A program made the position numbers and the translations under genes. Shown piece by piece: positions 51,889-53,950 of a stretch of 64,000 nucleotides of DNA. Origin of the DNA: an uncultured Ruminococcus sp. (GTDB lineage Bacteria > Bacillota > Clostridia > Oscillospirales > Acutalibacteraceae); contig CACZZB010000003.1 in the NCBI GenBank assembly GCA_902785555.1, forward strand, positions 1 through 64,000, read 5' to 3'. The first letter of the stretch is position 1. Each line of letters begins with the position of its first letter. Below the pieces are notes generated by a model that saw nothing but the letters and a program-made list of their open reading frames with translations, made no database searches and was not told the origin of the DNA.

Positions 51889-51892
51889 TGTC

Positions 51893-51912
51893 AATCAGCA
51901 ATTAGAAATTTA
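51893..51912. repeat. AATTAGC-type repeat, copy a
   Basis: A short copy (AATCAGCAATTAGAAATT) placed 4 bases after the reductase stop codon, in the same orientation relative to its gene as copies c and e. Confidence 0.55.
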
Positions 51913-52538: not shown

Positions 52539-52549
52539 TATTATAACAG

Positions 52550-52900
52550 TGGAGGCGAGGAGAATCGAACTCCTGTCCAAAAAGCACTCACAACGGTTTT
52601 CTACGAGCGTATCCCATGTTTTGGGATTCCCCCCACATAACGCCCACAGGCAGGCTTTATGCTTCGGTAGCCTTTAAGCCATGACAAAGAGCAAGGCTCA
52701 TCTCTGTTCATGTTCACCACTAATCGACGCCCCTAAAGAGCCGTGGTCCTCTCAATAGGAACGCTTGCTAATTAAGCAGCAAGGGCAACAGTATTATTGT
52801 TGTCGTTTAATTTTAAAAGTCTGCGGATTTTATAGCGGTTCTGCAGTGCCGCTGCTCGCTTGCCGAGGCTCACACTCCCTGTCGAAACCTTTACGCCCCC
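52550..52900 (-). ncRNA. ssrA: Transfer-messenger RNA (tmRNA)
   Basis: The one-piece tmRNA that rescues stalled ribosomes. The 5' end GGGGGCG pairs with CGCCTCC at the 3' end. The tRNA-like TTCGATTCTCC T-arm and the 5' GGTTTCGACAGGGA segment are present. The tag frame ends in NDNNNTVALAA followed by TAA. CCA is not encoded. Its protein partner smpB lies 430 bases upstream, separated by a dead four-helix-bundle gene and repeats. Confidence 0.95.
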
Positions 52901-52907
52901 ATATATA

Positions 52908-52946
52908 CAATTAGCAATTAGCAATGTGCAATGTGCAATTATCATT
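52908..52946. repeat. AATTAGC-type repeat, copy b
   Basis: CAATTAGCAATTAGCAATGT followed by GCAATGTGCAATTATC: two AATTAGC and two AATGTGC units. It lies between the tmRNA 5' end and the four-helix pseudogene, and is inverted relative to copy c. Confidence 0.8.
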
Positions 52947-53299
52947 GCCGGCTATTTTTTTGGGTTTTCGTAATTGCCGCAAGAATTTTTATAAGTTCTT
53001 TACAGTCTGAATATATGCTTTCAAAAGCCTTTGTATCTATATATCCGCTTTCATGCAGTAATTCAAGCCAATACTCTGTTTCATTAGCCTCTTTGTAAGA
53101 TATATACATTTTGGCATAAAAATCAGACTTGGTTTGTGCATTTACTCCTTCTTTTGCATTGGCACCGATACTTGTACCGCTTCACAAGATTTGTTTTGAC
53201 AAAATATATTCTTTACTTATTTTCACAAAGATATTTATAAAGATTTATTATTCTCAATGCAAATGCCTTACTCTTATCCAATATCACATTGTTTTCCAT
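52942..53299 (-). pseudogene. Degenerate four-helix-bundle (S23/bAvd-like) protein gene
   Basis: The minus-strand sequence encodes MENNVILDKSKAFALRIINL...YLCENK, then a frame change with a TAA near 53215. In the shifted frame it continues KEYILSKQIL, stop, SGTSIGANAKEGVNAQTKSD, then an intact tail ending AAITKTQKNSRQ. Both the SGTSIGANAxEG motif and the length match the four-helix-bundle family found in 23S rRNA intervening sequences and related to DGR Avd proteins. The TGA at 53182-53184 replaces the usual Arg of LRSGTS. One frameshift plus one nonsense codon make it non-functional. It is flanked by inverted copies b and c. Confidence 0.82.
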
Positions 53300-53310
53300 A
53301 AAATTCTCCG

Positions 53311-53352
53311 TAACCGACAATTGCAAATTGCTAATTGCTGATTGCTAATTTG
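53311..53352. repeat. AATTAGC-type repeat, copy c
   Basis: The reverse complement reads AATTAGCAATCAGCAATTAG then CAATTTGCAATTG, opposite in orientation to copy b. It encodes the last residues of SmpB (LAISN) and its stop codon. Confidence 0.8.
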
Positions 53353-53804
53353 TTCTTCATTGCTCTGTCAATGTCACGTTTGGCATCACGTTTAGCCATG
53401 TCATCACGCTTGTCATAGAGTTTTTTGCCCTTGCACAGACCGAGCTGGAGTTTTACTTTTGAGCCTTTGAAATAGAGTGACAGTGGAATAAGTGAATAGC
53501 CGTCCTGTTTGACAGTGCCGTACAAACGCATTATTTCACGCTTGTGCATGAGGAGTTTTCTGACACGCATAGGGTCTTTATTGAATATATTTCCCTGTTC
53601 ATAAGGACTTATGTGCATACCTTTGACAAATATTTCTCCGTCTTCAATGGTACACCATGCGTCTTTAAGGTTAACTCTCCCCTGACGTATAGATTTTACT
53701 TCCGTTCCGAAAAGTTCTATGCCTGTTTCAAAGCTTTCCATGACAAAATACTCATGGTAAGCCTTTTTGTTCTGTGCGATAGTCTTCAATGATTCTTTTG
53801 CCAT
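53331..53804 (-). CDS. smpB: SsrA-binding protein
   Basis: A 157-residue OB-fold protein that binds tmRNA and delivers it to the ribosome. The [18 protein letters not shown] start, KEVKSIR-like region [15 protein letters not shown] and [20 protein letters not shown] end are characteristic. The start at 53804 (MAKESLKTI) has GGGGTGAG upstream. The final five residues are encoded by a dispersed repeat, so the native C-terminus appears to have been replaced by repeat insertion. It functions with the nearby ssrA. Confidence 0.95.
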
Positions 53805-53819
53805 GTACTCACCCCTTTT

Positions 53820-53841
53820 CAATGTGCAATGATTGCTAACC
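53820..53841. repeat. AATTAGC-type repeat, copy d
   Basis: CAATGTGCAATGATTGCTAA just upstream of smpB, inverted relative to copy e. The 75 bases between d and e hold no gene. Confidence 0.6.
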
Positions 53842-53917: not shown

Positions 53918-53950
53918 AATTGCACATTGCACATTGCTAATTGCTAATTT
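53918..53950. repeat. AATTAGC-type repeat, copy e
   Basis: The minus strand reads AATTAGCAATTAGCAATGTG then CAATGTGCAATTAT, nearly identical to copy b. It touches the recR stop codon. Confidence 0.8.

Follow-up and report, generated by a model that had tools for sequence, protein, structure and literature searches.

RAYT/REPIN systems consist of a gene bracketed by inverted repeats, together with gene-less inverted pairs and singlets of the repeats in the same genome. The accessory protein Avd of DGRs is a four-helix bundle and is said to be related to the protein family considered here.

A third system is the intervening sequence (IVS) of 23S rRNA. The sections of PMC4990558 on the Coxiella IVS describe tandem heptamers upstream of the S23p ORF and a 28-bp terminal stem with RNase III cleavage in vitro, and they report no clear function to date for the S23 protein of 23S IVSs. 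Because heptamers were noted there, the class of arrays described below had been glimpsed once before. Families of heptads have also been described on their own, namely, TAACTGA in Beggiatoaceae, GGGAATC in Xanthomonas, and the heptads of Nostoc, Geobacter, and Calothrix (the passages on these repeats in PMC4679880, PMC4692102, and PMC2700814). The discussion of TAACTGA in PMC4679880 asked for a repeat-binding protein and suggested that such a protein might itself be the mobile element. In the open-licence literature, a scope outside which preprints and most subscription papers fall, we found no general link between the four-helix family and heptad arrays.

The window is the whole stretch of DNA that was analyzed, 64,000 nucleotides of a contig from an uncultured Ruminococcus sp. 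We propose, with a probability of roughly 0.6, that one of its loci is a decayed small selfish element composed of a four-helix gene and two inverted arrays, mostly of four to five repeats of about 7 nt, whose pentameric protein would recognize its own array.

The locus between ssrA and smpB

A decayed four-helix-bundle gene (23S_rRNA_IVP, PF05635/TIGR02436) occupies positions 52942..53299 of the minus strand, between the tmRNA gene ssrA (52549..52900 by ARAGORN, 52547-52900 by Rfam), which is on the same strand, and smpB (53331..53804, minus strand). The profile search matched PF05635 at 52978-53226 (-) with 83.7 bits against a cut-off of 33.8 and with one TGA inside the match, which bears out the family assignment of the first-pass annotation. 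This is the sole PF05635 match in the 164-contig genome. An intact relative scores 99 bits and, with a cut-off of 24, 110.3 bits in profile searches for the family (PF05635/TIGR02436), and a domain search of its protein found PF05635 as the only domain and no HUH transposase. Aligned with the intact copy of the close relative G046 (L068), the window gene has one frameshifting length difference, and its internal nonsense codon falls on the residue just before SGTS, in agreement with the decay by one frameshift and one TGA nonsense change that had been read from the window. A third difference is a one-base length change in an A-run near the 3' end, and the family motif SGTSIGANAKEG is retained. 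The window copy of the element is dead; its lesions are read from the assembly alone, and either may be a sequencing error. The domain search found no reverse transcriptase domain in seven neighboring window proteins, and Rfam found no rRNA in the window, so the decayed gene is outside 23S rRNA.

The repeats that flank the gene are tandem 7-nt arrays of the unit ATTGCNN, running in opposite directions. On the ssrA side, the array (52907..52940) has its ATTGCNN units on the minus strand and its outer end approximately 7 nt from the tmRNA 5' end; on the smpB side, the array (53319..53352, plus strand) is inverted relative to it. Their arms (52908-52932 and 53320-53344) are 25 nt long and 92% complementary, which upholds the inverted repeats reported on either side of the gene. 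The element folds at z = -4.1, with the arms paired into a stem. Outer units of the smpB-side array (53331-53352) supply the codons for the end of SmpB, including its stop (KLAISN*), and in several related genomes that lack the array the tail has another form, for example, RNR*.

Arrays of this type extend beyond the gene. A third clear array lies past smpB at 53918-53944 (53918..53949 in full, plus strand), and its outer end abuts the recR stop codon. With a degenerate short array upstream of smpB (53820..53834, minus strand), it forms a gene-less inverted pair that bounds the smpB-recR spacer. A degenerate solo array (51892..51911, minus strand) lies 3 nt downstream of the aldo/keto reductase stop codon. 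With up to two mismatches allowed for it, AATTGCNNATTGCNNATTGC has 9 matches in the window against 0.11 expected, a number reached in 0 of 100 shuffles, and ATTGCNNATTGCNNATTGC has 39 matches genome-wide against 0 for its reversed control. Since arrays are dispersed genome-wide, the two beside the window gene do not belong to it exclusively, and this dispersal together with the third array rules out a transposon-like inverted-repeat pair that belongs to the window gene alone. The first-pass annotation was thus correct that inverted repeats are present and had missed their tandem 7-nt structure, the third array beyond smpB, and the dispersal across the genome.

A PF05635 match is present in 29 of 64 genomes of the genus. 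It had been proposed to look for intact homologs flanked by the same repeats, the absence of which would have refuted the proposed unit; homologs flanked by arrays of the same kind exist. Two other genomes of the genus, G046 and G045, have an intact copy at the same smpB-ssrA site, with ATTGC-type arrays on both copies. When the smpB-ssrA spacers of 30 of the 54 smpB loci were inspected by eye, many other genomes of the genus had a short spacer without the gene and some had other sequence. In G027 (SmpB 98% identical), the spacer holds a gene-less inverted array pair, and those of G010, G055, and G002 hold arrays of other units. The G045 spacer (L067 / L089) also contains a perfect 102-bp inverted repeat. 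Part of the tmRNA 5' end is present, in inverted orientation, in its far arm; the repeat either records a copying event or is an artefact of the assembly.

Heptad arrays beside the gene across phyla

The association of the gene with arrays is general and extends across phyla, as shown by computation in four samples. For every flank, the best period from 4 to 15 was compared with 60 dinucleotide shuffles (p<=0.05), using 200 bp of flank in the genus sample and 250 bp in the other three; control windows were about 1 kb away (700-900 bp in the genus). Loci were the best-scoring matches rather than a random draw. The genus sample used 50 of 55 match rows, after exclusion of five short or second pieces, and the named sample used the best 80 of 413 confirmed relatives, from many phyla, found in a scan of a genome collection. 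Pooled, the samples have period-7 arrays in 247 of 371 gene flanks versus 7 of 341 control windows, with at least two loci present in two of the samples. Period 7 or 14 was detected in 66/96 flanks versus 2/85 controls in the genus, in 112/159 versus 4/148 at the 80 named loci, in 41/56 versus 1/51 at 30 loci of Gammaproteobacteria, and in 28/60 versus 0/57 at 30 loci of Cyanobacteria. Period 8 accounts for 20 further flanks of the named loci and 18 further flanks in Cyanobacteria, each versus one control. About a third of flanks have no period-7 array. The four-helix gene itself was detected in 59 of 369 gammaproteobacterial and 74 of 146 cyanobacterial genomes. For 12 cyanobacterial plasmid copies (taken from 32 records with a match; two are identical in sequence), period 7 was found in 10 upstream and 7 downstream flanks. 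No match to the four-helix family was found in phage records. As a gene control, flanks of smpB in the same genus have period 7 in 11 of 60 cases, a number raised because the smpB-ssrA spacer is itself a favored site.

Other periods and settings were observed at single loci. Apparent period-6 arrays occur at L303 and L304, with a weaker one at L306, and an apparent period-9 array occurs at L174. On plasmid pANA02 of Anabaena sp. 90 (L264), a four-helix gene with heptads on its flanks separates cas6 from cas4 in a CRISPR locus; 18 such four-helix genes in cas loci are given in the relevant section of PMC3936711.

Units are matched across each gene. An ungapped comparison of the upstream flank with the reverse complement of the downstream flank scored at least 14 at 64% of 124 loci, versus 13% for the same comparison in direct orientation and 1% of 617 pairs of flanks from different loci. 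Within one genome (G002, G015), different copies have different units, each matched across its own gene. In the 5' to 3' reading of the upstream side, C is scarce in the units, and A occupies one particular position of the 7-mer in 95% of 106 units and again in 95% of 199 arrays; the base before this phased A is usually T, G or C, and the base after it G or A. The likelihood of the unit alignment is 243 versus a null maximum of 215 (30 shuffles, equal restarts); a first run used 200 restarts for the data and 25 for the null, and the excess is kept with equal restarts.

If the arrays were host microsatellites, polymerase slippage would make intergenic heptad tracts and the four-helix genes would merely sit there. 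The relevant sections of PMC4679880 and PMC4692102 describe an excess of heptads in bacterial genomes and propose slippage as their origin, and some four-helix copies have no detectable arrays. We nevertheless regard this explanation as very improbable: it is opposed by period-7 arrays being far more frequent beside the gene than in windows about 1 kb from it, by left and right units that are matched and inverted within a locus and rarely across loci, by the different units beside different copies in G015 and G002, by the conserved strand polarity and A phase, and by the use of period 8 in some lineages.

Array size may bear on the pentameric protein of the proposed selfish element. Among ATTGC arrays at loci of three genomes, 37 of 76 have five units and 22 of 76 have four, and the solved PDB relatives 2rld and 2gsc each contain five chains. 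Period-8 and period-7 arrays have median lengths of 35.5 nt and 32 nt, respectively (p=0.24), and their unit counts differ slightly (p=0.018). In an analysis that included a simulated calibration, conservation of unit number rather than of array length came out clean in a smaller set and was lost in a larger set, so that either number or length may be what is fixed. Turnover of units is fast: similarity of units rises mainly above 70% protein identity, and strand polarity alone persists at low protein identity. Array similarity was also considered as proof of co-evolution of protein and repeat and was set aside, as the rise above 70% identity is what plain common descent gives.

Gene-less arrays, copies at different sites, and stable-RNA neighbors

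Arrays without the gene keep the order seen around it. At 40 array loci of G002 and G015, neighboring arrays less than 400 nt apart are in the order found around the gene in 11 pairs, in the same direction in three, and in the opposite order in none, with gaps from -1 to 263 nt. Many single arrays have no partner nearby. Since arrays occur solo and in gene-less inverted pairs, they are not simply the transposon ends of the gene. At one orthologous site, an array pair is present in G000 and G015 and the site is bare in G046; the interior of the G000 pair resembles the native spacer. By inspection, interiors of gene-less pairs are mostly unlike each other, with two partly alike. Interiors that are mostly unlike, and native-looking at the one site compared, indicate that the pair is not a classical miniature transposon. 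Across 11 genomes compared at one array-pair site, spacers are too diverged for a target site duplication to show. Where G000 has an array pair, L274, L286, and L287 (of G027, G002, and G056) have other shared sequence (GTGGGGAAAACCC...).

Arrays also have a preferred position relative to genes. In three genomes, 50 of 73 arrays have their outer end at most 20 nt from an ORF boundary, versus 19 of 73 for the inner end. The sections on repeat placement in the earlier studies report that TAACTGA arrays are near start codons (PMC4679880) and that GGGAATC in Xanthomonas forms inverted pairs and follows a similar rule of strand where it meets stop and start codons (PMC4692102). Arrays that abut start and stop codons, with this like placement in two other families, are consistent with a regulatory system, in which the protein would bind UTR arrays of many host genes and the arrays of its own gene would be autoregulatory. 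The decay of the window gene, the patchy presence of the family in the genus, the fast turnover of units, and the copies at different sites look selfish instead, and we consider regulation quite unlikely.

The type of dispersed array tends to correspond to the type of gene in the genome. Each of the six genus genomes that have an ATTGC-type copy also has ATTGC arrays, versus 20 of 58 others (p=0.003, kinship ignored), and at least 20 ATTGC matches are found in five of the six versus 5 of 58 (p=0.0002, kinship ignored). Two genomes have many ATTGC matches without a detected ATTGC-type gene, G015 with 180 (91% complete) and G021 with 60 (80% complete). Among the 369 gammaproteobacterial genomes, (GGGAATC)x3 occurs in a single one, G478, in which the GGGAATC unit upstream of an apparently frameshifted four-helix copy had been found before the genome-wide count. 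The reversed (GGGAATC)x3 control also occurs in one genome, G266, with 6 matches.

Homology between copies at different sites is confined to approximately 0.4-0.6 kb around the gene. Aligned pairs are 85% identical over 539 bp (G047/G055), 92% over 578 bp (G031/G005), 88% over 492 bp (G041/G010), and 81% over 391 bp (G000/G002); G047/G038 are 99% identical over 519 bp, with only the downstream flank comparable. Among the aligned pairs, the one with a bounding array at each end is G041/G010. In the tRNA-adjacent copies L052, L054, L069, and L072, homology continues beyond the upstream arrays as far as the tRNA end; downstream, the test detected no period-7 array, with one of period 6 in L072. 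The earlier suggestion that gene and repeats once moved as a unit is sustained as regards the unit, since the intact copies have arrays of the same kind and homology of this extent includes the arrays; the unit may or may not have moved here by machinery of its own.

Another vehicle can amplify the gene, as in the cyanobacterium G597, where near-identical copies are inside a separate element with terminal inverted repeats. This multi-copy element (L373-L383, L345) has TAACTGACGTTACGCA ends and carries a heptad-flanked four-helix gene, which in some of the G597 copies is itself interrupted by another array-bearing insert. The G597 expansion was examined as clean evidence of self-mobility and ruled out as such, because the separate element carries the copies. 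In the genus, a hairpin-forming CGAAAATCCTG is near the edge of the element in 4 of 50 copies (L052, L069, L070, L072), roughly 100 nt downstream or 190 nt upstream of the gene match, and it could mark another kind of element end. Both the G597 copies and this shared hairpin are consistent with four-helix genes being carried as cargo by ordinary transposons in which heptads occur by chance. We give that explanation hardly any weight, as arrays are associated with the gene across phyla and the aligned pairs, to which this comparison was confined, share no common terminal end.

Within the genus, 19 of 50 copies are at most 350 bp from a tRNA or tmRNA gene, versus 0.5 expected, and all 19 are co-directional with it. 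Some of them may represent one inherited site, as six precede tRNA-Leu and three precede tmRNA. Ten copies (L051-L054, L056, L057, L069, L072, L077, L079) are downstream of the 3' ends of tRNA (Ser, Leu, Gly, Met, Arg) or tmRNA genes and on the same strand as the RNA gene. A T-arm-like GTTCGAGTCC, shared by copies located at different tRNAs, follows the gene match by about 44-108 nt in L052, L054, and L069. Several subfamilies that are co-directional beside tRNA or tmRNA genes in the genus fit travel in, or processing from, stable-RNA transcripts, like the 23S IVSs. Location beside RNA genes was ruled out as a general rule, as none of the 80 named loci has a tRNA or tmRNA within 350 bp. Rfam scans of 20 named loci placed none in 23S rRNA and found no rRNA, with one tRNA and one 6S RNA in that set and one tRNA among 20 further loci. 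Two tRNAs, about 1.1 kb away, were found at 60 gammaproteobacterial and cyanobacterial loci, and two slightly further off at 20 genus loci without a near tRNA. The connection to 23S IVSs that had been drawn for the window is thus a loose one, with 0 of 20 named loci inside 23S rRNA.

These locations also bear on whether the arrays matter only as a stem in a transcript that RNase III cleaves, with reverse transcription as the means of spread and a protein that has no array-specific role. The fold of the window element with its paired arms, the 28-bp stem and RNase III cleavage in vitro in the Coxiella IVS (as the IVS sections of PMC4990558 describe), and the co-directional neighbors in the genus all agree with such RNA processing. 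We consider it unlikely on balance: a stem requires neither tandem heptads, the A phase, nor solo arrays; many single arrays are without a nearby partner; and the named, gammaproteobacterial, and cyanobacterial loci examined have no rRNA and few stable RNAs near them.

The proposed element and known systems

In the selfish element that we propose, the protein would recognize its own array in single-stranded form, perhaps with one repeat per subunit, and the element and the gene-less arrays would be copied to new places by host or partner enzymes, presumably with RNA or single-stranded DNA as the intermediate. A wider and more tentative possibility is a mobile system without a recognized nuclease, recombinase, or polymerase, built on a pentameric four-helix-bundle ring that recognizes arrays of about five short repeats and serving as the common source of heptad families. 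Each subunit of such a ring would bind one repeat, as single-stranded RNA or DNA, and the ring would thereby single out the element and, in trans, gene-less arrays to be copied to gene boundaries and to loci of stable RNAs. The cyanobacterial heptads, TAACTGA, GGGAATC, and other heptads in bacteria and archaea might then derive from it. The heptad arrays of cyanobacteria, sulfur bacteria, Xanthomonas, and Geobacter have been described without a source, and a widespread element of the proposed kind could provide one for such orphan 7-nt families. Joining the question of where heptads come from with that of what S23 proteins do makes each directly testable. If true, the proposal would also give RAYT/REPIN a companion among very small selfish elements.

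The window element resembles the 23S IVSs of Coxiella and Leptospira in having a gene of the S23p family and stem-forming terminal inverted repeats. Those IVSs are inside 23S rRNA, whereas the window element and the 20 named loci are outside; and unlike in the IVSs, arrays here are matched on both sides of the gene and gene-less arrays are dispersed in the genome. DGRs have a reverse transcriptase and a template repeat nearby; no reverse transcriptase domain was found in the seven window neighbors. Copies of a miniature inverted-repeat transposable element share an interior, which the gene-less pairs here mostly do not. RAYT/REPIN systems are alike in outline, with a repeat-bracketed gene and dispersed gene-less pairs and singlets, but their gene encodes an HUH transposase, whereas the intact relative here has PF05635 only, and their repeats are palindromic REP sequences rather than tandem heptads. 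The orphan heptad families, as the repeat-focused sections of the papers cited above describe them, are likewise tandem 7-nt arrays at gene boundaries, often of four or five units. Those sections name no associated gene, whereas the arrays described here flank PF05635 genes, and GGGAATC itself is found upstream of one.
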